DNA from: a virus
Length of the DNA: 64,000 nt
Virus record (IMG/VR): IMGVR_UViG_3300043570_000986
Coordinates: 1-64,000 of that record
Direction: 5' to 3' (one strand)
The notes under the pieces are model-generated. The model made no database searches. It worked only from the letters and a program-made list of their open reading frames with translations, and was not told where the DNA came from. Shown here piece after piece: positions 4,282-22,710 of this stretch. Numbering within the stretch: the first letter of the stretch is position 1; each line of letters starts with the position of its first letter. The translations under genes were made by a program, and so were the position numbers.

Positions 4282-4380
4282 TAATATTTTAAATAAAGGT
4301 TTAACCAACTAACCTCAAAGGAGTGTTTTTACAGAACACTTAAACTGTATTAGGACAACTATCACATAACCTAATATAAG

Positions 4381-4453
4381 GTATGATAGTGGGAATTGAA
4401 CCCACTACCTCCTGATTAATATCAGGTGCTCATACACAACGAGCTATATCATA
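4381..4453 (-). tRNA. tRNA (isotype uncertain, atypical anticodon loop)
   Basis: Read on the minus strand it folds as a cloverleaf. The acceptor stem is TATGATA/TATCATA (7 bp), with bases TA linking to D-stem GCTC/GAGC. A 5-bp anticodon stem CCTGA/TCAGG follows, then variable loop AGGTA and a canonical T-arm GTGGG-TTCAATT-CCCAC, with discriminator C. CCA is not encoded. The anticodon loop is TATTAA, only 6 nt instead of 7, so the anticodon cannot be read with confidence: ATT or TTA are possible. The D-loop (9 nt) lacks a clear GG. A G at 4454 could pair with the discriminator C as an extra -1 pair. It is either an unusual or a decaying tRNA. Confidence 0.7.
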
Positions 4454-10247: not shown

Positions 10248-10644
10248 AGAATTAATAATTCCTATATATGATTGTTTAGTTAGTATTCAAGTTACTAATG
10301 ATATGAATCTTGCAGTAAAACATCTTACAGATACTTATGGTATTACTGAAGATGAAGATTTAACAAATATGGGAGGATTTTGTAATTCAGATCATTCTTC
10401 TATAATTGATAGACAAGTATATTATTTAGTAGTAGGTTATACTTTAGATAAGAAAGAATATTGGGCTACTATTGCTCATGAAACAATGCATTTGATACAA
10501 GAAGTATTAGAATCTAGGGATATTTATTATCTTAGAAAACAACCTAATGAACCATACGCTTATATGTATGGTTACTTTATATCAGAAAACTTTGAGTTCT
10601 TTGAACAAGCATATTCTAAATTTAAAAGAGTTAAAATAAAATGA
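10240..10644 (+). CDS. Small zincin-like metallopeptidase, 134 aa
   Basis: HETMH (His80, Glu81, His84) in the context YWATIAHETMHLIQEVL is a HExxH zinc motif. An acidic/aromatic segment 20-30 residues later (NEPYAYMYGYFISENFEFF) can supply a third ligand through Glu. Small zincins with 'AHE.mH' and 'E.yAY..GY' are known in phages; their targets are mostly unknown. Position just before terL suggests a role in head maturation or take-over, which is inference. Confidence 0.65.
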   Translation: MHKELIIPIYDCLVSIQVTNDMNLAVKHLTDTYGITEDEDLTNMGGFCNSDHSSIIDRQVYYLVVGYTLDKKEYWATIAHETMHLIQEVLESRDIYYLRKQPNEPYAYMYGYFISENFEFFEQAYSKFKRVKIK

Positions 10645-11162
10645 TAAAAATAATAGATTTAGTAGACGGTAAAATTATAGTTGCTCCAGAGTGTTTGGTT
10701 ATAGAACCATTTAAATCTATTTGGGAGAAAGATAAATCTAAAGATAAGACTCATGCATTTAATATGATTAAATATACTTGGTATTATTCTTCATTTAAAT
10801 CACCTTTTTTTCAACATAATAATGCAGATAGATCTAAGTTAATTTTAAGTCATATTATTAAAGATGATAAGTTTAAATTAACTAAAGAGTTAGAAGAATG
10901 TATTAAGATGTATGAAACTATTAATACTACTCCTGCAATGAAGTTATTTAGAGCAGTACAAGAATCTATTAATAAGATGGAAGAGTTCTTTAAGACTGTA
11001 GAATATGATGAAGATAATATTAAGAAAATAACAGATACTATTATTGCTATGCCTAAAGTACAGGAAGCTATTCAAGCAGCATTAAATAACTGTAACAAAG
11101 AACAAGCTTCTGGGGACACTGTCCGTGGCCAGGCAACATTAGGAATTTTTGAAGATGTATAA
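10641..11162 (+). CDS. Conserved protein next to terL, 173 aa (possible small terminase)
   Basis: Opening half contains FKSIWEKDKSKDKTHAFNMIKYTWYYSSFKSP, a conserved phrase that I recognise from proteins preceding the large terminase in phages of Bacteroidota. The C-terminal half is a long helix/coiled coil (ESINKMEEFFKTV...). By position and helical content it could be the small terminase or a terminase partner, but no HTH is obvious. It overlaps the zincin gene by 4 nt and ends 2 nt before terL. Confidence 0.6.
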   Translation: MIKIIDLVDGKIIVAPECLVIEPFKSIWEKDKSKDKTHAFNMIKYTWYYSSFKSPFFQHNNADRSKLILSHIIKDDKFKLTKELEECIKMYETINTTPAMKLFRAVQESINKMEEFFKTVEYDEDNIKKITDTIIAMPKVQEAIQAALNNCNKEQASGDTVRGQATLGIFEDV

Positions 11163-11164
11163 TT

Positions 11165-13261
11165 ATGCAAAATAATAATCCATATATACAACATATAGAA
11201 TATTTTGAATCTACTAAAGAATTTAGTTATTTAGCTGAAGTTTACAATAAAACAGGAATGTATACTAATACAATAGTTGGAACAATTGAATATTTAGATT
11301 TTTGGACACAAGTTAAAGATTATTGTATTAATGGTTTTGAAAACTCAAAAGGTTTTAAAGTCACAGGTCAACATTTCTTTTATCTTAACTTCTGTCCAAT
11401 ATTAGGTCTTAATGAAAAGACTGGAAAGAAATCTAAAATCTTTCCTAGGTTTATAGATTTAGATTATGAGTTCTTCCACATGGTAGAATATTGTAGACTA
11501 AATCAAAAATCATTAGTTGCAGTAAAAGGTAGACGTCAAGGATGGTCTTACAAAGCTGCAGCAATATGTACACATGAGTTCTATTTTTACCCAGATAGTA
11601 AAGCAGTAATAGGAGCATTCTTTAGTTCATTTAGTCAGAATACCATGAACATGGTTGTAGATAATTCTAACTTTATTAATACTAATACTGAGTTTAGAAA
11701 ACAACGTAATCCTGACCTTAAAGATTTTATTAAAGCTAGATACCAAGCTACAGTAAGTGGTGTTAAAGTTTGGAAAGGATTTAACTCTGAAGTTAGAGCA
11801 ATATCATTTAAAGATAATCCTACTGCTGCAGTTGGTTTAAGTGCTTCCTGGTTAATCTTAGATGAGGCAGGTGTATTTAACAATATTACAGATACTTATG
11901 GATATACTGAACCACTTATTAAAGATGGTTCTAAATATACAGGGGTAGCATTAATATTTGGATCTTCTGGAGATATGGATTCAGGTAGTAAATATTTCTA
12001 TGAGATGTTTACTAATCCTGAAAAGTATAACATGTTAGATTTTGAAGATCCATTTAATCCTAATGGTAGAATAGGATTCTTTAGTTCTGCTACAAAAGGT
12101 AGGTTAGGTTTATGCCTTAATCCAGATTCTAAATGGTATAAAAAACACATGGTAGATGAAGACGGTAATTCTAATTATGAAGCAGCACAAGATGATATTG
12201 ATTTCTTAAGATCTAAAGCTAAACATGGTTTAGATCCTAAAGCAATTCATAATATTACTACTCAGTTCCCATGTACTTGGAAAGAAGCATTCTTAAGAAA
12301 TAAAGGTAATGTATTTGGTTCTCCAGAAATGTTAGAATGGTTAGGTCATTTAGAAAATACTCCTAGTCTTAGAGGTCAAGCTCAAAAGGGAGAATTATTT
12401 TTTGATGAAGGAACTGTTAAATGGAGGCCTAGTAATGAATTAAATTATATTACAGATTTTCCATTAAGAAAAGATCCTAAATCTGGAGAATCATTTTCAA
12501 CAGATAGTTGTGTAGTAATCTGGGAACACCCTGAGAAACAAGATAATGGAGAAATACCTAATTACTTATACATTGCAGGATGTGACCCTTATGATCAAGA
12601 TAAGTCAGAATCTGGTTCCTTAGGTTCATTTTTTGTATATAAAAGATTTTATAGAGCAGATAGAACTCATGATATTATAGTTGCTGAATATACTTCTAGA
12701 CCAGATACTGCAGAACAATTCTATGAAAACTGTAGAAAGTTATGTATATATTACAACTCTAAAGTATTGTATGAGAATCAGTTAAAAGGTTTAAAAGTAT
12801 ACTTTGAGCAAAAGAATGCATTACAATATATGTGTGAACAACCAGGTATTATTAGAGATATTGTTAAAGACTCTAGAGTACAACGAGGATATGGTATTCA
12901 CATGAATAGAGGAACTAATGGTTCAAGTGGTATTAAAGATCAATGTGAGTTATATCTTAAGAAGTGGTTATATGAAGAAGTTAGTGGTGAAACTGAAGGT
13001 ACTAAAGTGTGTAGGTTTCAAACTATTAAATCAATACCATTACTTAAAGAATTAATAGCTTATGATAGAGATATTAATACAGATAGAGTTATAGCACTAA
13101 TGCTGTGTGTATTACAAACATACGAATTACATAGAATACATGTGGAAGAGCTATTAGACATGAAAACAACGTCTGGTGATTTCTTAGAAAAAATATACCA
13201 AAAAAACCTTATATTTAACAGGAGGAATTCTCAATCCCAATTTAATCCAAGCAGAAACTAA
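11165..13261 (+). CDS. terL: Terminase large subunit
   Basis: Packaging motor ATPase and headful nuclease, 698 aa. Walker A-like KGRRQGWS begins at Lys121. Walker B ILDEAG has Asp233/Glu234. The C-terminal RNase H-like nuclease starts at the strand IAGCDPYDQDKSE (Asp474), with a later acidic partner near GIKDQCELYL. Length and order fit crAss-like TerL. Its final base overlaps the portal ATG (TAATG). Directly upstream is a probable terminase partner. Confidence 0.92.
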   Translation: MQNNNPYIQHIEYFESTKEFSYLAEVYNKTGMYTNTIVGTIEYLDFWTQVKDYCINGFENSKGFKVTGQHFFYLNFCPILGLNEKTGKKSKIFPRFIDLDYEFFHMVEYCRLNQKSLVAVKGRRQGWSYKAAAICTHEFYFYPDSKAVIGAFFSSFSQNTMNMVVDNSNFINTNTEFRKQRNPDLKDFIKARYQATVSGVKVWKGFNSEVRAISFKDNPTAAVGLSASWLILDEAGVFNNITDTYGYTEPLIKDGSKYTGVALIFGSSGDMDSGSKYFYEMFTNPEKYNMLDFEDPFNPNGRIGFFSSATKGRLGLCLNPDSKWYKKHMVDEDGNSNYEAAQDDIDFLRSKAKHGLDPKAIHNITTQFPCTWKEAFLRNKGNVFGSPEMLEWLGHLENTPSLRGQAQKGELFFDEGTVKWRPSNELNYITDFPLRKDPKSGESFSTDSCVVIWEHPEKQDNGEIPNYLYIAGCDPYDQDKSESGSLGSFFVYKRFYRADRTHDIIVAEYTSRPDTAEQFYENCRKLCIYYNSKVLYENQLKGLKVYFEQKNALQYMCEQPGIIRDIVKDSRVQRGYGIHMNRGTNGSSGIKDQCELYLKKWLYEEVSGETEGTKVCRFQTIKSIPLLKELIAYDRDINTDRVIALMLCVLQTYELHRIHVEELLDMKTTSGDFLEKIYQKNLIFNRRNSQSQFNPSRN

Positions 13262-15834
13262 TGAGTCAAGATATATATGCCAATTTAGGTGGTCAAAATT
13301 TACCTCAACAAAAATTACCTATGTCCCAAAAGGATAAAGAATGGGGTAAATCTTGTATTAATTATTATTCAAATTATAGATATACTAATGGTAGTAACTT
13401 AAGATCTGATAGATTTAGAAAGTTAATTAACTATGATTTATATAATGGTAAAGTAAACCATAAAGATATTGAAACTATTTGTGATCCATTAGGAGTTAAT
13501 ACTTCTAATACATTCTCAGCTAGATTTCAACATTATGATATAGTGTCAGAACCTATTAGATTACTAATTGGTGAAGAAACTAAAAGACCTGATAATCATA
13601 TTGTAATATCAGAATCTCCAGAAGATATTAATCGTAAAACAGCAGGAGTTAAACAAAGAATATTTGAAGCTTTACAACAAGGTTTAGCTTATCAAATAGA
13701 TCCTAATGCTGATCCTAATAATCCACCCCCACCGCCAGAAGAGATAGTTAAGCAAGAAAAGTATACTCCTTCAGATATGATTGAATCTAAAGCAAATAAG
13801 ATTCTTAAAGTATTGAAGAAAAAAGTTAATACTAGATTGTTATTTAGTCAAGGTTGGAAAGATGCATTAATTGCAGGAGAAGAAGTTTATTGGGTAGGTA
13901 TTGAGAATGGTGAAGTAACTATGCGTAGAGTTAACCCAGTTAACTTAACAGTTATTTTAGATGGTGATACAACTTTTATTGATGATGCTATAGCAGTAGT
14001 TGAAGAAAGAATGTTAGCTATTAATACTATCTTAGATGAGTATGGTGATATTCTTTCTAAAGATGATATTGACAAATTAGAAAACTATACTAGAGGAACC
14101 TTTGGTTCTTTTAATACTGCTGGTGGATTTGAACCTCAGTTTGATGTTGTTAATGGTCAGAATGCTTTTGCAGGAATTACTCCTACTAATGCTTACAATG
14201 GAAATAATAGTAATAACTATTCTATTAGAGTTACAAGAGTTGAATGGAAATCAATGAAAAAGATTGGTGAATTAACTTGGACTGATGAAGAAGGAACTCC
14301 ACAATCAGAAATAGTTGATGAGTTATTTAATACAAGAATATTTAAAGAAGCTTTTCCAGATGCCAAAGTAGAATGGTATTGGATTAATGAAGCATGGGAG
14401 GGTGTTAAAATAGGATTAGATATTTTTACAGATATTAAACCTAAACCTAACCAAAGACGTAGATTAGATAATCCTTATTTCTGTAGATTAGGTTATACAG
14501 GATTTATATATGAAGCAACTAACTCTCAATCAGTTAGTTTAATTGATAGGTTAAAACCTTATCAATATTTATATGATATTATATCTTATAGATTAGAGAT
14601 AGCATTTGCTTCTGATCAAGGTAAGAAGTTTATCATGGACTTAGCTCAAATACCAGAAAGTCATGGTATTGACATGGATAGATGGTTATACTATTTAAAA
14701 GAAATGAATATTGCTTTTATTAATAGTTTTGAAGAAGGTAAAAAAGGAATGGCTACTGGACAACTAGCAGGTAGCAAGTTTAATCAATTCCAAGCAATAG
14801 ATTTAAGTCTTAGTCAATCTATTCAGCAGTATATCAACATGCTAGATTATATTAAGTCACAAGTAGCCTTTGTATCTGGAGTTACTCCACAAAGATTAGG
14901 TGCTATTAATAACTCTGAATTAGTTGGTAATGTAGAAAGATCTGTTAATCAATCTTCTTTAATTACTGAATATTTATATGAAGCTCATGCTGAAGTAAAA
15001 CGTAGAGCTTATACTTGTATGATTGAAGTAGCTAAGATTGCTTATAAAAAAGGATTAGTTGCTCAATACATGTTAGATGATACATCTATTGAATTATTAC
15101 AATTAGAAGAAAATGAATTTGAGAACTCAGAGTTTAGTGTATTTGTAACTAACAACACTAAAGATTTAGAATTAAAAGCTAAGTTAGATCAGTTAGTTCA
15201 AGTAGCATTACAATCTGAAAAAGTAGATTTATCTGCAATAGTTGAAACATTAATAAATGATTCTCCTAGAGATATTATTAGATTATTACAACGTAAAGAA
15301 GAAGAATTTTATAAACGTCAAGCTGATCAAGGTAAATCTCAACAAGAACATCAGATGCAGATTGAACAATTACAAAAACAAATGCATGATGAACAAGTTG
15401 AATTTGACCATCTTAAACTTGATCAAGAAAGATATATTGCTGAACAAAACAATGAAACTAAAATACAAGTTGCTGAGATTGCTGTATTTAATAAACAACA
15501 AGACATTGACCTTAATGATAATGGTATACCAGATTCTTCAGAGATTGCTGCTAATGCTTTAGCTCAACAAGAATTATCTTCTAGAATGTTCTTAGAACAA
15601 TCTAAGATAGGACATGATAAATCTAAACATGAAGCTCAAATTGCATTAAAAGATAAAGAAATAAAGCTCAAGAATGAGCTTGAAAATAAAAAAATTGAAG
15701 CCATAAAAATTCAAAATGCTAATCAGATAGAACTAGCTAATAAGAAAGCTAAATTAGATAGAGAGATGATGGATAAGAAAATGCAGATTGAAAAAATGAA
15801 AATTGCTTCCAAACCTAAAACACCTAAAAAATAA
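13261..15834 (+). CDS. Portal protein with long C-terminal coiled coil
   Basis: 857 aa, directly after terL. The N-terminal part (INYYSNYRY..RKLINYDLYNGK, then SEPIRLLIGEETKRPD) is the typical start of portal proteins of Bacteroidota phages. The core contains LYDIISYRLEIAF and SGVTPQRLGAINNSE, as in other portals. From about residue 680 it becomes a Gln/Glu/Lys-rich coiled coil. This is interrupted near residue 748-762 by DIDLNDNGIPDSSEI, a calcium-loop-like D-x-N-D-N-G pattern. It forms the dodecameric DNA channel at one capsid vertex. Confidence 0.88.
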   Translation: MSQDIYANLGGQNLPQQKLPMSQKDKEWGKSCINYYSNYRYTNGSNLRSDRFRKLINYDLYNGKVNHKDIETICDPLGVNTSNTFSARFQHYDIVSEPIRLLIGEETKRPDNHIVISESPEDINRKTAGVKQRIFEALQQGLAYQIDPNADPNNPPPPPEEIVKQEKYTPSDMIESKANKILKVLKKKVNTRLLFSQGWKDALIAGEEVYWVGIENGEVTMRRVNPVNLTVILDGDTTFIDDAIAVVEERMLAINTILDEYGDILSKDDIDKLENYTRGTFGSFNTAGGFEPQFDVVNGQNAFAGITPTNAYNGNNSNNYSIRVTRVEWKSMKKIGELTWTDEEGTPQSEIVDELFNTRIFKEAFPDAKVEWYWINEAWEGVKIGLDIFTDIKPKPNQRRRLDNPYFCRLGYTGFIYEATNSQSVSLIDRLKPYQYLYDIISYRLEIAFASDQGKKFIMDLAQIPESHGIDMDRWLYYLKEMNIAFINSFEEGKKGMATGQLAGSKFNQFQAIDLSLSQSIQQYINMLDYIKSQVAFVSGVTPQRLGAINNSELVGNVERSVNQSSLITEYLYEAHAEVKRRAYTCMIEVAKIAYKKGLVAQYMLDDTSIELLQLEENEFENSEFSVFVTNNTKDLELKAKLDQLVQVALQSEKVDLSAIVETLINDSPRDIIRLLQRKEEEFYKRQADQGKSQQEHQMQIEQLQKQMHDEQVEFDHLKLDQERYIAEQNNETKIQVAEIAVFNKQQDIDLNDNGIPDSSEIAANALAQQELSSRMFLEQSKIGHDKSKHEAQIALKDKEIKLKNELENKKIEAIKIQNANQIELANKKAKLDREMMDKKMQIEKMKIASKPKTPKK

Positions 15835-16361
15835 TGAGTAGTTTAAAACTAACACCTCCAGCAGCAAAGACAAATCCTTTTGTAAGTAAGGAATGTATTG
15901 ATATATTAAACTTTAGAATTGAACAAGAAGAATATTCTTCAAGATTTTATACTGCAATGTCAATGTGGTTAAATGACCATGGGTATTTAGGTGCTGCAGC
16001 AGTTTGGGAAAAAGATGCAGAAGGAGAAATGGTTCATGCAGGTTGGGCTAAGTCTTTCTTATTGGATATGGGTATTACACCTAAGACTCCAGCATTGAAA
16101 GAACCACCTCAAACATTTACAGGTTTACCTGATGTTATTAAACAATCATATGCTCATGAAATAATGGTTACACAACAATGTAATGATTTAGCTTCACATG
16201 CTATGAAATATGGTAATCATTTATTATATCAGTTAGCTATGAAATTTTTAACTGAGCAACAAGAAGAATTAGGAAAAGTACAAAACTTAGTTGATCAATT
16301 AGAAGCATTTGGTGAAGATAAGATTGCAATGAGATTATTTGATCATGAACTAAAAGGATAA
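15834..16361 (+). CDS. Ferritin (non-haem, ferroxidase type)
   Basis: 175 aa, full-length four-helix ferritin close to bacterial FtnA in pattern. LNFRIEQEEYSSRFYTAMS corresponds to helix A, GAAAVWEKDAEGEMVHAGW to helix B, YAHEIMVTQQ to helix C and FLTEQQEELGKV to helix D, with a FtnA-like LFDHEL end. By alignment from memory the ferroxidase ligands are Glu32, Glu65, His68, Glu109, Gln142 and Glu145. The third-site Glu next to Glu65 is Gly64, while its partner Glu141 is kept. Ferritins oxidise Fe(II) and store ferric mineral in a 24-mer cage. The ATG overlaps the portal stop (TAATG), so it is expressed as a late gene with the head. Codon and base use look like the neighbours. Confidence 0.9.
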   Translation: MSSLKLTPPAAKTNPFVSKECIDILNFRIEQEEYSSRFYTAMSMWLNDHGYLGAAAVWEKDAEGEMVHAGWAKSFLLDMGITPKTPALKEPPQTFTGLPDVIKQSYAHEIMVTQQCNDLASHAMKYGNHLLYQLAMKFLTEQQEELGKVQNLVDQLEAFGEDKIAMRLFDHELKG

Positions 16362-16364
16362 TGA

Positions 16365-16571
16365 ATGTCATTAATTCACGAAGTAAAACAAATACTTTGG
16401 GTAACAACCCCTCATGGTGATGGTATAGTATTATTTATAATGGATTATGGTCCACAAGAAAATACTGTATTTGTTGTAGCACTTGAAGAGAATGGTATAA
16501 TAAAACATTATAATAGTAATGATGTTAGATTATGTAAAAATGATACTTTTAATATAAATAAGAATGTATAA
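16365..16571 (+). CDS. Small beta-barrel-like protein, 68 aa
   Basis: Beta-rich (EVKQILWVTTPHGDGIVLFIMDYGPQENTVFVVALEENG), of SH3-barrel-like appearance as seen in small phage proteins that begin 'vwV.TPhG.G'. No function known. Overlaps the following start by 8 nt. Lies in the late operon between ferritin and the peptidoglycan-active protein. Confidence 0.65.
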   Translation: MSLIHEVKQILWVTTPHGDGIVLFIMDYGPQENTVFVVALEENGIIKHYNSNDVRLCKNDTFNINKNV

Positions 16572-18438
16572 TAAGTTACCAGTAAAAGAAAGAATAGAAT
16601 TGATGAAGTCTTATAGAAAGGCTAACAAAGATATGTCTTATCGTGACATGGTTAAAGATTATAATGATAGTTATGAGAAGTTTCAAGATGGTGGTAAATA
16701 TATAGTTAAGTCTGGTGATAATTTATCTACAATTGCTAAAAATTATAATACTGATATAGGTACTATTCAAAAATTAAACAACATACAAGATGTTAATAAA
16801 ATAGGTGTTGGTCAAAATATTGTATTACCAGAAAGACAAAACAACATTGTTCAACAACCTGTTAATACACAACAATCTGCAAATTTAGATAGTTATGATT
16901 TTAATACAGCATTTAAAATAGCTAGACAAGAATTAGGACCAAATAAAATATTTGAACATAAAGGTAAAAAATTTGGAACTAATTTAAAAAGAGAAACATT
17001 TGTACCTGATAAAGAAGAATTAGCTAATAATAATATGTTAAATGATTCAACATTAACTCATTTAACTGATCAAAATAAAAAAGTTAAATCTATTTATACA
17101 AGTAAAGAAACTGTTAAGTTACAACCTACTTGGAAAGAATCTACAGAAATAGAAAAACAAAATCAGGAATTTAATAAATTAAAAAATGCAGAGTTAATTA
17201 ATAAATACCAATCTATTAGAAATCCTAATGAAAAATATATTATTGTAGATAAGAAGAAAGGTAAAATGCATGTATATTTAGGAGGAAAAGAAATTGAATC
17301 TTATAATGTAGGTACTGGTGAAAATAAAGGTGATGAACAAACAAGAACTTGGGTAGATAAAGAAACACATAAAACAGATTGGTCTAAAGGAAATAAACAA
17401 ACAGGAGCAGGAGTTTATACAATATCTTTTATTGATGAACACAATAAGCATTATGGTAATGTTCCTTCTTTTCATTTAAAAAATGAAAATGGTGTAGAAG
17501 TACCAACTGCTATACATGCTGGATTTGGAGATAGGTTAAAAAGGATTGCAAATAATGATTTAAATAATAATGATCCAGAAAGTGGAAAAGATACTAGATT
17601 TTCTAATGGTTGTATAAATGGATTATGTAAAGATATGACTGATCTATATCAAAATGATTTAAAAGCTGATAAAAAAGGAAATCAAGGTACTAAAGTATTT
17701 ATATTACCAGATGATGATAATAATTTTTATCAGATAAAAAATGGTAAGTTAAATTTAACAACTAAAGAATATAATCCTAATGTAGCATATTCTCCTAAAA
17801 ATCTAAAAGCTAATCCTGTTAAAATAAATGTTACTAATGAAGAAAATAATACTCCACATGTAAAAGGAATGGCATATACATTAGAAAAACTTAAATCTAC
17901 TTTAATGAAAGATGGTAAAGTTGATAATGATACCTACAATAAGTTAAGTAAGTTAGTTATAGGATTAGCTTTACAAGAAACTAAAGGTGGAGAAGATTAT
18001 CGTGTAAGATCAGGTTCTTTAAAAATTCCTTTTACAAATAAAGAAACAGATCAAGGATTAGTTAATTACTTAAAAGATTTAAAAGGTTCTAATAGTATAA
18101 ATTCAAGAGGATTAACTCAAATTAAATATGATGCTCAAAATGACGAATTAAAAGCACAATTTAAAAAATATGGAGTAACAAAAGATAATTTAAATGATGG
18201 TGCACATGCTTCTATTGCAACAATGTTAATGTTAAGTTATATGTACAATAATGAATTACCTAGTTTAAAAGAAAAACTTAAAAAACAAGGAATATCAGAT
18301 GAAGAAGCATTACTTTATTTAAATCAAGGTAAGAAATCTGAAATTGTAAAAGGTACTGCTACACCAAGTAAAAACATATATATTCAAAATGTAAAAAATT
18401 TTGGTAAGAATATTAGCGTACAAGAAGAATCATATTAA
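16564..18438 (+). CDS. LysM + L,D-transpeptidase-like + lysozyme-like virion protein
   Basis: 624 aa with at least three modules. Residues 1-43 (KERIELMKSYRKANKDMSYRDM...YEKFQDGG) form a short helical leader ending in GG. Residues 44-91 are a LysM peptidoglycan-binding domain (YIVKSGDNLSTIAKNYN). Residues about 222-375 resemble a YkuD L,D-transpeptidase: YIIVDKKKGKMHVYLGG, then His318 in IHAG and catalytic-type SNGC350IN. Residues about 435-610 look like a lysozyme/transglycosylase fold with Glu472 in ALQETKGG and a later SRGLTQIK. It is probably a virion enzyme that opens the cell wall during entry. It ends the terL operon and is followed by a terminator. Confidence 0.72.
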   Translation: MYNKLPVKERIELMKSYRKANKDMSYRDMVKDYNDSYEKFQDGGKYIVKSGDNLSTIAKNYNTDIGTIQKLNNIQDVNKIGVGQNIVLPERQNNIVQQPVNTQQSANLDSYDFNTAFKIARQELGPNKIFEHKGKKFGTNLKRETFVPDKEELANNNMLNDSTLTHLTDQNKKVKSIYTSKETVKLQPTWKESTEIEKQNQEFNKLKNAELINKYQSIRNPNEKYIIVDKKKGKMHVYLGGKEIESYNVGTGENKGDEQTRTWVDKETHKTDWSKGNKQTGAGVYTISFIDEHNKHYGNVPSFHLKNENGVEVPTAIHAGFGDRLKRIANNDLNNNDPESGKDTRFSNGCINGLCKDMTDLYQNDLKADKKGNQGTKVFILPDDDNNFYQIKNGKLNLTTKEYNPNVAYSPKNLKANPVKINVTNEENNTPHVKGMAYTLEKLKSTLMKDGKVDNDTYNKLSKLVIGLALQETKGGEDYRVRSGSLKIPFTNKETDQGLVNYLKDLKGSNSINSRGLTQIKYDAQNDELKAQFKKYGVTKDNLNDGAHASIATMLMLSYMYNNELPSLKEKLKKQGISDEEALLYLNQGKKSEIVKGTATPSKNIYIQNVKNFGKNISVQEESY

Positions 18439-18541: not shown

Positions 18542-19657
18542 ATGAGTAAGGAAAAAAAAGAATTTAATATTCTTGACACACCATTTGGTGAAGGTCTAGA
18601 AATGCAGTTTAATGATGAGTTCTCTAGTGATTTTCAAGAGAACAATTCAGTAGCACAACCACTAGTTCCAGAACTAGAAGATGTAACACCTCAAGTTGAT
18701 GAAACTAAAGAAGTTGTTAAAGATCTACCTAAAGAAGAAACCAAAGAAACTAAAGAAGTTGCTAAGGTTGAATCTAAACAAGAAAGTACTGAGGAAAGTT
18801 CTTCTCTCAAAGTATTTGCAAGTTGGTTAGGTGATAAAGGTTTAGTAGACTACGATGAAGAAACTTTTGAAGATTCAGAAGAAGGTCTAAAAAAACTAAT
18901 GAGTTCTACTGTTGAACGTGAAGTGGAAAACTACAAAAATAGTTTACCAGATGATGTTCACAAGTTAGTAGAATTTGTTGAAGCAGGAGGTAATCCTAAA
19001 GATTTTATTAATGCATATTATAATGAAGTAACTTGGAGTGATTTTGAAATAGACACTGACACTACTCAAAAAATTGTATTAAGAGAATATTTAAAAGCAC
19101 AAGGAGAAGATATTGAAGAAATAGAAGAAACTTTAGATACATATGAAGTTTCTGGTATTTTAGAAAAGAAAGCTAAGAGTGCATTAAGCAAATTACAGAA
19201 CTATGAGAAAGGTTATCAAGAACAATTGGTAGAATCTCAAAAGAAGTATGAAGCTGAACAAAGAGCAGCAGCTAAGAAACAATATGAAGATTTCAAAGCT
19301 GACTTATATGCTAAAGAAGAAATTCAAGGGTTTAAATTAACCCCTAAAATGAAAGATAATCTTTGGGAATTCATTATGAAACCTGATAAGACTGGTAAGA
19401 CAGGATTACAGAAACATAATGAAACTAACACTAATGCTCAATTCATGTATGCTTATTTAGCAATGAATGATTGGGACTTAAGTAAGTTAGAAAGACAAGT
19501 TAAAACTAAAGTTAACTCTGAGTTAGCAAGTAAGTTATCTAACTTTAAAGATGGTAGATCTAAATTAAAGACTGGTCAGTCTGATAGTTTTGGATCAGAA
19601 AAATCTTCAGGTAACTTCAGTGTTTTTAAACAAGCTTTAGATAAAGGCTTTTTATAA
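18542..19657 (+). CDS. Scaffolding protein
   Basis: 371 aa, highly acidic in the first 100 residues (repeated KEETKETKEVAK-type Lys/Glu runs), with a long helical/coiled region (residues about 210-255, ESQKKYEAEQRAAAKKQYED) and a Ser/Lys-rich tail ending FKQALDKGFL. Composition, size and position immediately before the major capsid gene are those of phage scaffolding proteins, which direct procapsid assembly and then leave. No protease domain is visible in it. It has its own promoter and shares the message with the capsid gene. Confidence 0.75.
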   Translation: MSKEKKEFNILDTPFGEGLEMQFNDEFSSDFQENNSVAQPLVPELEDVTPQVDETKEVVKDLPKEETKETKEVAKVESKQESTEESSSLKVFASWLGDKGLVDYDEETFEDSEEGLKKLMSSTVEREVENYKNSLPDDVHKLVEFVEAGGNPKDFINAYYNEVTWSDFEIDTDTTQKIVLREYLKAQGEDIEEIEETLDTYEVSGILEKKAKSALSKLQNYEKGYQEQLVESQKKYEAEQRAAAKKQYEDFKADLYAKEEIQGFKLTPKMKDNLWEFIMKPDKTGKTGLQKHNETNTNAQFMYAYLAMNDWDLSKLERQVKTKVNSELASKLSNFKDGRSKLKTGQSDSFGSEKSSGNFSVFKQALDKGFL

Positions 19658-19697: not shown

Positions 19698-21149
19698 ATG
19701 CAAATTAGTCCATTACAAATAACAAACATGAATTGGCATGCTGGTCTTACTCAAGACTCTCATTTGTCCACATTCTTTTTAACTGAGCCAGCTATTGCTA
19801 GTCAAGTTATCACTCGTATTTATAACAAACAAAATGGTTATAAAAATGCTCTTTCTTTCTTAACAGGTGGAATGGGTAAAGCTAAAGAAATTGATGGTAT
19901 CCAATATCGTTGGAATATCATTGGTGACTCTCGCAAAGCAATATCTATTACTCGTTCAGTATTTGATGCTGCTAGTTCAGTAGGTATTAACGCTACAACT
20001 TTTAAAATTGGTGTAGGTGAGAAATGGTTCTCAGAAGGTGACGTTTTATTATTTGACAGTCCAGATTATAAAGCTCGTGTAATTTCTGAACCAATTTATG
20101 ACGGTGCTGATTACATCTTAGTATGTCAATTAGTTACTGCAGATATCACTAAATCTGTACCTGCTACTTTAGTAACAGTTGGTAAAGAGGTATCTAAAGA
20201 ATACAACATTGTAGAACATGATCATTCTCGTACATCAGGTGAAACTCACTATGCTACACCAATGATGTTAGAAAATTACATGACTACATTGCGTAAGAAA
20301 TATTCTGTAACTGGTGCTGCTCACAGTCGTGTTATGGTTATCTCTATGTTAAATCCTGAAACTAATGAAAAAACTAACACTTGGGTAAAATATGCTGAGT
20401 GGGAATTTTGGAAGCAATTCATGGATGAAATTGAAGTTATGTTAATGTTTGGTGAATCTAACATTAAATCTAATGGAACAACTGATTTAAAAGGTGCTTC
20501 AGGAAATACAATTTATTCTGGTGCTGGTTTAGAAAATCAAATTGCTCCAGGTAACAAACGTCTTTACACTACATTGAATGAAAAAACTATCCGTGATTTC
20601 ATGGGAGATTTAGCATACAATGGTACTGAAGATGGTCCTCGTGAGTATGTTGCTTTATGTGGTCGTGAATTCATGAACTTATTTGATCAAGCTATGAAGC
20701 GTTCAGCTTCTGCTTTCAACTTAGTTGATAGTAAATTCATCGCAGGTGAAGGACAAAACTTAGAATTACATGGTCAGTTTATGACTTATACAGGTTTAAA
20801 TGGAGATAAAATTACATTAAAAGAGTATAAGCCTTATAATGATACAATGAGAAATCGTTTATTACATCCTCAAACTGGTAAACCAGCAGAGTCTTATAAA
20901 GCGACTTTCTTAAACTTTAAATCTTATAACAAAGGAGAACCAAATATCCAAAAAGTATATTCTAAAGATCGTGAGATGGTAACAACTTACATTGAAGGAA
21001 TGTATGGCCCTTATGGACCTAAGAAGAATGGTTCATCTGCAAGTTCAGTAGATGGTTACACATTTGAAGCAATGACAGAATGTGGAGTTATGTTACGTGA
21101 CCCATCAGATGCTGCTCAATTAATTTTAGATGCTTCTAGCATTAGCTAG
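19698..21149 (+). CDS. Major capsid protein (HK97 fold)
   Basis: 483 aa. Sequence begins QISPLQITNMNWHAGLTQDSHLSTFFLTEPAIASQ and has the layout of crAss-like major capsid proteins. It is preceded by scaffold and followed by a strong terminator, giving one dedicated message. Codon use shifts here (more CGT, GGT, AAC), as usual for the most abundant phage protein. Starts after an A-rich leader (ACAAAAACAAA) and stops with TAG. HK97 fold is inferred from family, not from a motif. Confidence 0.85.
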   Translation: MQISPLQITNMNWHAGLTQDSHLSTFFLTEPAIASQVITRIYNKQNGYKNALSFLTGGMGKAKEIDGIQYRWNIIGDSRKAISITRSVFDAASSVGINATTFKIGVGEKWFSEGDVLLFDSPDYKARVISEPIYDGADYILVCQLVTADITKSVPATLVTVGKEVSKEYNIVEHDHSRTSGETHYATPMMLENYMTTLRKKYSVTGAAHSRVMVISMLNPETNEKTNTWVKYAEWEFWKQFMDEIEVMLMFGESNIKSNGTTDLKGASGNTIYSGAGLENQIAPGNKRLYTTLNEKTIRDFMGDLAYNGTEDGPREYVALCGREFMNLFDQAMKRSASAFNLVDSKFIAGEGQNLELHGQFMTYTGLNGDKITLKEYKPYNDTMRNRLLHPQTGKPAESYKATFLNFKSYNKGEPNIQKVYSKDREMVTTYIEGMYGPYGPKKNGSSASSVDGYTFEAMTECGVMLRDPSDAAQLILDASSIS

Positions 21150-21235: not shown

Positions 21236-22033
21236 ATGGAAGTAATTAACAGACAGTATGTTATTAGACCTATCATACGCAATAAATTTTCAGGTCAATC
21301 TTATTACAATAAAACTCTTACTGTAATAATGGGAGCACAGTTAAGTAATACTGGTTTATATAAAACAGGATTATCAACTGAAGATGAAGCACATTTTGAA
21401 AAGGAGTTAAACCTAGCTAAAGGAACTTTAAGTAAGCGTAATGCTGACTTTTGGGGAGATATGGAAGTAAGGTTAAGAAACGACAAGTTAACAATATTTA
21501 ATATAGTTAACGCATATGATGAATTAAAGTTTAGAATGTTACAACAACATGATTGGATTGCTAATACAGAGCATGATGTTGTAGGTAATTCAACTGCTAG
21601 ATTTTACATATATGATCCAGAAGCAGCAAGTAAAATTGAAGATGCTAAAATGGAATTTGAATTTGCAGCAATGGAAGCTTTCCATAAAACAACTGTTGAA
21701 GAAAGAAGAGGGTTACTAAGAGTCTATGGTAAAACAGGTGTAGATAATATGTCTGAAACTATGATTAAAACAGAATTATTTAAAGAACTTAAAAAAGACT
21801 TTAAAGAGTTTATTAGAATCACTTTAGCTAAAGATACTCCAATAAGAGCTTTAGTAAAAGCTTTAACTGAGAAAGAAATAATTAAACAAAAAGGTACTTA
21901 TTTTTATAATGGTGAAGATTTATTAGGTAGTTCAACTGATGAGGTTGTAAGTTACTTAGCAGATTTAAAAAACCAAGCTATTAAATTAGCATTAGAAAAT
22001 AAATTAAAACCTAAGAAAGCCAAAACTGAATAA
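21236..22033 (+). CDS. Virion-associated protein, 265 aa
   Basis: Mixed alpha/beta protein between the capsid gene and the first connector gene. It has a beta N-terminus (MEVINRQYVIRPIIRNKFSG), a long helix (SKIEDAKMEFEFAAMEAFHKTTVEERRGLLRVYG) and a Lys-rich end. The position suggests a head or neck protein conserved in the crAss-like block; I cannot name it more precisely. TAATG overlap with the next gene. Confidence 0.65.
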   Translation: MEVINRQYVIRPIIRNKFSGQSYYNKTLTVIMGAQLSNTGLYKTGLSTEDEAHFEKELNLAKGTLSKRNADFWGDMEVRLRNDKLTIFNIVNAYDELKFRMLQQHDWIANTEHDVVGNSTARFYIYDPEAASKIEDAKMEFEFAAMEAFHKTTVEERRGLLRVYGKTGVDNMSETMIKTELFKELKKDFKEFIRITLAKDTPIRALVKALTEKEIIKQKGTYFYNGEDLLGSSTDEVVSYLADLKNQAIKLALENKLKPKKAKTE

Positions 22034-22710
22034 TGACTATTGTAGAAGCTCATCAAGAATTTAAGTTTAGATGTGATAAATTAGATGCTCTAAATTATCC
22101 TAACTTCTTACCAGAAGAAATAGATTTAATTTTAAATAATGCTCAACAAAGAATTATTAAACAAAGGTATGGTCTTTCTAATAATAAAAGACAATCTTTT
22201 GAGGAAACTCAGAAAAGAACTGAAGATTTAAAAAATGTTACAGTAAATGCAGTATTAACACCTTTAGCTTATGCTTCAGATAATATTGATGTAACTGCAA
22301 GATTTTTAACTTTACCTACTGATCATTGGTTTACTGTACAGGAAAGATGTAGTATTACATGTACTATATGTGGTACACCAGTAACACAACTAGTTGAAGT
22401 TATTCCAACAAGTCATTCAGAATTTTCTAAAGTGATCAAAGATCCTTTTAAACAACCTACTAATACTAAAGTTATTAGATTAATGGAAGCAGGAAGAGTT
22501 GAATTATTATCATCTTGTACAATTGTAGATTATAGAATGAGATACATTAAACAACCAGCTACAGTTAATATTAATACAGGTGTTACATTTGATTTATCTG
22601 AACACATGCATTCAGAAATTATAGATCAAGGAGTATCAATAGCTTTAGAAGGAATAGAGGGTAAAAGAACACAATCATTTAATCCTTTGATTAATAACAC
22701 TAACGAATAA
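22033..22710 (+). CDS. Connector/ring protein (head-tail joining), 225 aa
   Basis: N-terminal helical part EAHQEFKFRCDKLDALNYPNF followed by PEEIDLILNNAQQRIIKQRYG is the signature of connector proteins that bind below the portal (T7 gp11/P22 gp4-like role). The middle has CTICGTPV, a small Cys pair, and the C-terminus is beta-rich. In crAss-like phages several ring proteins stack under the portal. Which ring this is cannot be told from sequence. Confidence 0.7.
   Translation: MTIVEAHQEFKFRCDKLDALNYPNFLPEEIDLILNNAQQRIIKQRYGLSNNKRQSFEETQKRTEDLKNVTVNAVLTPLAYASDNIDVTARFLTLPTDHWFTVQERCSITCTICGTPVTQLVEVIPTSHSEFSKVIKDPFKQPTNTKVIRLMEAGRVELLSSCTIVDYRMRYIKQPATVNINTGVTFDLSEHMHSEIIDQGVSIALEGIEGKRTQSFNPLINNTNE

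Follow-up and report, generated by a model that had tools for sequence, protein, structure and literature searches.

Iron proteins of viruses and the locus in the window

Phage-encoded Dps and bacterioferritin are already known. According to the available excerpts of the respective papers, Dps and manganese catalase occur in the 'Gratiaviridae' and other gut phages (Benler 2021, PMC8008677), bacterioferritin in the 'Flandersviridae' (PMC11780533) and in the Vrana Lake archaeal virus from lake sediment (PMC10904782), and ferritin in giant viruses (PMC7136201). A literature search restricted to papers outside subscription returned neither a joint report of Crassvirales and ferritin nor any report of the ferritin clade presented here. 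Crassvirales rank with the most abundant phages of the gut; no ferritin gene is present in the members described so far.

The DNA analysed here (the window) is a stretch of 64,000 nucleotides derived from an 87,245-base virus record, IMGVR_UViG_3300043570_000986. Its genome was recognised as that of a crassvirus by the profiles PF23898, PF24228, PF25702, PF25710 and PF25731, all above cut-off, and the Pfam profiles revealed a capsid protein, three tail-ring families and a muzzle protein (Table 1). An open reading frame of 175 codons with its ATG at 15834–15836 encodes a ferritin, and this start codon has one base in common with the stop codon of the portal gene (TAA, 15832–15834), exactly as the original prediction had it. 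The proposed position inside the head module is also borne out, with the portal upstream and the probable scaffold and major capsid protein downstream, and so is the neighbour-like base composition (GC of 0.32 in the ferritin gene, 0.29 in the portal gene and 0.34 in the major capsid gene). A promoter scan of the window gave fewer matches than were obtained in shuffled sequences. One tRNA-like gene with a two-base anticodon call, left unassigned, was seen at 4380–4453 (minus strand).

Table 1. Positions of the ferritin gene, its parts and its neighbours in the window
Feature	Coordinates	Strand	Evidence or remark
Large terminase	11165..13261	+	Profile matches annotated terminase of cr10_1
Portal	13261..15834	+	Sequence; 34% identity to annotated Crassvirales portals
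FtnA-type ferritin, 175 aa, Gly64 replacing third-site Glu	15834..16361	+	ORF, Pfam, PDB, alignment, model
N-terminal tail, residues 1–17; phage-specific extension, proposed docking tag	15834..15884	+	Alignment, model
Helix E, residues 163–173	16320..16352	+	AlphaFold prediction, alignment
68-aa ORF, variable companion in portal-scaffold interval	16365..16571	+	Locus comparison
LysM + L,D-transpeptidase (YkuD) protein, variable companion in same interval	16564..18438	+	
Probable scaffold	18542..19657	+	Named by position only; without Pfam family
Crassvirus major capsid protein (PF23898)	19698..21149	+	409 bits
crAss tail ring protein 3/4 (PF25710)	22033..22710	+	Ferritin directly after it in second phage group

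A look at the same site in related contigs showed the portal-ferritin junction repeated in many separate contigs with 63–100% protein identity, so the junction is not a chimera, and the statement that the gene is no contig artefact stands. That the ferritin gene arose from misassembly, or from host DNA contaminating the contig, has a practically negligible probability: crassvirus capsid, ring and muzzle genes lie on the very same contig, the sequences sharing the junction are divergent, and the gene has phage composition and is under purifying selection.

Fold and iron site of the phage ferritin

The window protein matched the Pfam Ferritin profile PF00210 with an E-value of 4e-19 and 69.3 bits (cut-off 24.5), which places it among the ferritins rather than in another four-helix family, and its top sequence matches in the PDB were to E. 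coli FtnA (E about 5e-21). With the NCBIfam equivalog model for FtnA (NF007638) it reached 81.7 bits, below the cut-off of 178 bits; by its sequence it is a member of the FtnA family and not an equivalog of E. coli FtnA. No Bfr model was present among its library profile hits, and at FtnA column 52, inspected for the heme-ligand Met, no phage ferritin has a Met, the alignment register being that of FtnA and not of Bfr. The protein is also set apart from Dps by an intra-subunit ferritin site and by helix E.

The AlphaFold model, calculated with phage sequences only as input (pLDDT 88), revealed a four-helix bundle followed by helix E (residues 19–48, 52–78, 98–125, 129–159 and 163–173), in agreement with the four-helix pattern noted before. 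Bacterial ferritins from V. cholerae and E. coli were the best matches in the fold search (TM 0.87–0.88, rmsd 1.0–1.2 Å), and the identification as a ferritin is thus upheld by profile, PDB matches and predicted fold alike. Helix E lines the four-fold channel of 24-mer ferritins and is absent from Dps. A 24-subunit cage would be expected for the window protein because of its five helices, its intact di-iron centre and the presence of helix E.

Alignment with FtnA places the di-iron ligands E17, E50, H53, E94, Q127 and E130 at E32, E65, H68, E109, Q142 and E145 of the window protein, the very residues listed in the original prediction. Its observation that only a third-site Glu is replaced was correct too: E49 is substituted by G64, whereas E126 and E129 are retained as E141 and E144. 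The third (C) site, E49/E126/E129, is therefore incomplete in the window ferritin; this is a variable site, and family membership is independent of it. Among 59 distinct phage ferritins, all nine ligand or Tyr columns besides E49 are invariant, and the E49 column is occupied by Glu (35 sequences), Gly (18) or Asp (6). Judging from this alignment, Gly64 is the mark of a subset within the phage ferritin family. A decayed or non-catalytic ferritin is unsupported, all ferroxidase ligands being invariant, and the intact di-iron site predicts a catalytically competent protein.

Distribution, alternative occupants of the site and origin

The scan of viral contigs yielded 54 loci with the single sequence as query and 160 relatives with the alignment, 80 of which were kept. 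The 50,697 public phage records contained no such ferritin beyond one weak fragment of 28% identity. As originally remarked, ferritin does not belong to the standard crAss-like genes in the genomes described to date; in uncultivated aquatic crAss-like contigs, however, the gene is common, 'aquatic' being a reading of the sample codes. The gene order in the window's group (L001–L033) is portal, ferritin, an optional 68-aa ORF and LysM/transpeptidase gene, scaffold and capsid. In the other large group the ferritin is placed a few kb past the capsid gene, directly after tail-ring 3/4 (PF25710) and always on the same strand, and in L095 and L096 it lies upstream of the terminase. The gene keeps to virion-gene blocks but has two main sites rather than one fixed place. 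Its dN/dS against the window (0.08–0.37) falls in the range of portal and scaffold, and on this measure the ferritin is under purifying selection.

Other genes of the portal-scaffold interval vary as well. The LysM/YkuD protein (16564–18438 in the window) differs strongly in length and presence among close relatives. GIY-YIG or HNH-like homing endonucleases were seen between portal and scaffold in L003/L139 (L139:12559-13101), L153 (3093-3518) and L155 (4022-4537); the one in L139 sits between portal and ferritin and carries the last residues of the portal (KPKTPKK) at its end.

Close relatives lacking the ferritin were obtained by a portal search. In L143 and L147, with portals 88% and 87% identical, the portal gene is directly followed by the scaffold gene, with neither ferritin nor the protein described below, which rejects the ferritin as an essential head protein and indicates that the function of both genes is dispensable. 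The same observation bears on the reading that the ferritin was recruited to the head for a structural or assembly role without catalysis. The location of the gene between portal and scaffold and the third-site ligand lost from the subset including the window would suit such a role, but heads are built without ferritin in close relatives, the ferroxidase ligands are invariant in 59 of 59 phage sequences and the second group has its ferritin at the tail-ring gene instead, making this reading very improbable.

In L133–L137 and L142 (portal 90–94% identical) a 130-aa protein takes the place of the ferritin, its gene starting on the portal stop in L134–L137 (for example L134:12571-12963). This protein is DUF5856 (PF19174; phrog_858, annotated in PHROGs as 'starvation-inducible transcriptional regulator'), a family found in 772 public phage records, T4-like phages among them. 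Its alignment shows conserved H28, H31, H43, D58 and E62. All ten of its PDB profile matches were to Dps/NapA, although with weak E-values (0.01–0.95), and nearly all hits in the fold search with its model were Dps (TM 0.6–0.7, E of 0.03 and above). From this fold and these weak profile matches DUF5856 is assigned, with moderate confidence, as Dps-like, with putative iron chemistry. The literature search, again outside subscription papers, found no mention of DUF5856; the data on the ferritin slot offer a likely function for a loosely named family present in hundreds of well-studied phages.

The 74 distinct portal-to-scaffold intervals contained ferritin in 21 cases, DUF5856 in nine, both in three and neither in 41, with the ferritin elsewhere in the locus in 28 of the latter; since ferritin and portal queries were used to collect the loci, these counts are not natural frequencies. 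Where ferritin and DUF5856 occur in one genome they are always adjacent, and both gene orders and both sites are represented. In L238, L250, L259 and relatives, the gene immediately downstream of DUF5856 encodes 173 aa and resembles the window gene at 10641–11162, just before the terminase.

DUF5856 is coupled to the portal outside the crAss-like phages too. In unrelated podoviruses such as MW202483 and the lake phage DSL-LC05 it starts on the end of the portal gene, and in all 67 distinct podovirus loci with a recognised portal the two genes overlapped by 1, 4 or 14 bases; many of these loci are close relatives, and they do not count as 67 independent events. Small aquatic podoviruses with this arrangement include L216 (3519-3881), L218 (3489-3851) and L298–L377. 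In other phages DUF5856 is located away from the portal.

The phage ferritins form one clade in the tree (support 96/100), apart from the ordinary ferritins of Bacteroidota (100/100), with the flavobacterial type nearest to the phages. Holding all portal-site ferritins together was rejected by the AU test (p = 0.0009), and with it a single ancient insertion at the portal; in L068, L164, L165 and L171 the ferritin came to lie between portal and scaffold independently of the window's group. As far as the tree can tell, the site beside the portal has been occupied by ferritin more than once. A recent pick-up of a host gene is unsupported, given the separate phage clade and closest cellular kin of at most 49% identity. 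These kin are Flavobacteriaceae ferritins (L057–L066; 44–49% identity, same ligands) from Winogradskyella, Aureibaculum, Maribacter and Lutibacter. They represent a second, rare ferritin type of this family, and their conserved neighbourhood comprises BON-domain genes, phosphoglycerate mutase-like genes and in some cases Dps (names read from the sequences). Among 297 Bacteroidota genomes a phage-like ferritin was clear and full-length in one case and broken and partial in another; only ordinary ferritins, of about 100 bits or less, were present in the remaining 112 genomes with a match. One Bacteroidota genome (G106:C1:3869515-3869907, L103) has a phage-type ferritin with 133 open codons and internal stops, possibly a prophage remnant. 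The contig L056, binned in a 'Tissierellales' MAG, was discarded as a source of a Firmicutes ferritin, its gene content being phage-like and its ferritin falling inside the phage clade; it looks like a misbinned phage contig. In the proposed scenario Crassvirales would have acquired the ferritin a single time, the most likely source being the stress-island ferritin of Flavobacteriaceae-like hosts. Later moves between lineages would each have placed the gene in a virion-gene block, on more than one occasion between portal and scaffold.

N-terminal tail and proposed role

The residues preceding the first ligand number 28–64 in the phage ferritins, as opposed to medians of 16–22 in cellular ferritins (22 in the flavobacterial type). 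The first 10 residues of the window's tail are predicted to be disordered in the AlphaFold model. A conserved stretch with an Asn (KNP/KNI in most phage sequences) closes the tail, which in the second group often begins with a short basic motif (NLLKR, KRxLK) followed by a linker of varied length.

In four of the six genomes with both genes, the N-termini of the ferritin and of the adjacent DUF5856 are alike. The clearest pairs are MQKIVRPTVF/MQKIPRPSVL in L093 (0 of 790 background N-termini as similar) and MALDINK/MALDINK in L165 (2 of 790); those of L068 (0 of 790) and L171 (6 of 790) are weaker, and in L079 and L089 the two proteins share no tag. Within L093 and L165 the DNA of the two tags differs at synonymous codon positions, which disfavours duplicated DNA within genomes, and the likeness is therefore apparently kept at the protein level. 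The tag sharing between L021 and L134 could reflect recombination at the 5' end rather than selection. Three phage genomes and the window showed no evident further gene bearing the ferritin tag, and in a tag search in G321 the neighbouring DUF5856 ranked only fourth. The simplest reading of these shared N-termini would be a docking partner common to ferritin and DUF5856.

These data slightly favour a role of the ferritin as an iron-oxidising cage made with the head proteins, probably directed to a phage partner by its tail and protecting DNA from iron-driven damage. The ferritin would be translated together with head or tail proteins and would take up Fe2+ with O2 or H2O2 during head-protein synthesis and DNA packaging, sparing the DNA from iron-driven (Fenton) damage. 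Expression is presumably late, with DNA protected during head filling. The N-terminus of 24-mer ferritins is placed on the cage exterior, so the tail would display up to 24 copies of the docking peptide, which would bind a phage partner that binds DUF5856 too. Because of the Dps-like alternative in the slot and the shared tag, a DNA-protection role is favoured and, less firmly, virion cargo; the Dps-like alternate points to protection of DNA or against oxidants more than to plain iron storage.

The ferritin might instead be an ordinary auxiliary metabolic gene that stores or withholds iron in the infected cell, its position being a convenient late-expressed insertion site. The portal-scaffold interval does behave as a variable cassette (LysM/YkuD, 68-aa ORF, homing endonucleases, DUF5856, ferritin or nothing), and the giant-virus ferritins (PMC7136201) and the lake-sediment phage bacterioferritin (PMC10904782) are read in this way in the excerpts available. 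This account, however, gives no reason why the ferritins have gained an N-terminal tag that is in part shared, why ferritin and a Dps-like protein are paired in more than one arrangement, or why unrelated podoviruses couple DUF5856 to the portal; it is held to be somewhat doubtful.

Encapsulin cargo is loaded by targeting peptides. In a similar manner the tail could load the cage, or unassembled subunits, into the head via portal, scaffold or capsid, the ferritin inside the virion then protecting packaged DNA or delivering iron or ferroxidase to the next host. The head-module position with its one-base overlap with the portal, the phage-specific tail, the tag in common with the neighbouring Dps-like protein and the large amount of cargo protein held in the capsid and tail of crassvirus virions (PMC10172136) are all consistent with this option; on the other hand, the PhiCrAss001 cargo proteins detected by mass spectrometry (gp45, gp46, gp47, gp49 and gp50) come from another part of the genome (PMC10172136). 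Virion cargo is regarded as rather unlikely. Cargo ejection in crassviruses is thought to need partial unfolding (PMC10172136), which makes delivery of an assembled cage to the host unlikely; an intact cage, if packaged, would more likely be retained in the head than injected. Were it packaged, phage particles would be iron carriers, with a bearing on the proposed role of phages in natural-water iron.

A broader and rather speculative possibility is a tag-directed ferritin-superfamily module, in which an N-terminal peptide docks either the cage or the Dps-like protein on a head component during head assembly, packaged DNA being protected and the protein perhaps co-shipped. If true, viruses would possess an equivalent of the encapsulin-ferritin compartments, and podoviruses would have arrived at it separately by means of DUF5856. 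Returning to the favoured DNA-protecting cage, the conserved and recurrently placed ferritin and its alternation with a Dps-like protein indicate that iron-driven DNA damage may constrain head assembly in related phages, and together with the sometimes shared tag they suggest a deliberate handling of iron during particle construction. A defined pair of genes and a short peptide are now available for testing.

Compared with known systems, the 'Gratiaviridae' proteins resemble the phage ferritin in being ferritin-like di-iron proteins of Bacteroidota phages with a proposed reduction of oxidative damage, but belong to the Dps and catalase families and are not FtnA-type, and the available part of that paper describes no portal slot or tag (PMC8008677). 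The viruses of PMC11780533, PMC10904782 and PMC7136201 likewise have iron-storage genes on their genomes, although, as far as the excerpts of these papers go, these are bacterioferritins or eukaryotic-type ferritins of unrelated viruses with no reported link to head genes. The stress-island ferritin of Flavobacteriaceae is rare and chromosomal, beside BON-domain and other stress-type genes. DUF5856, with its Dps-type His/His/Asp/Glu pattern, shares with the phage ferritin a predicted ferritin-superfamily fold, the slot beside the portal and sometimes the N-terminal tag, but differs in its Dps-like character, its length of about 130 aa, the lack of helix E and a much wider distribution among phages. 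Bacterial FtnA (E. coli 1eum/9bye, V. cholerae 3qz3) has the fold, the ferroxidase ligands, Tyr24 and helix E in common with the phage ferritin at only about 30% identity; unlike FtnA, the phage protein has an added N-terminal tail and, in the window's subset, Gly in place of Glu49.
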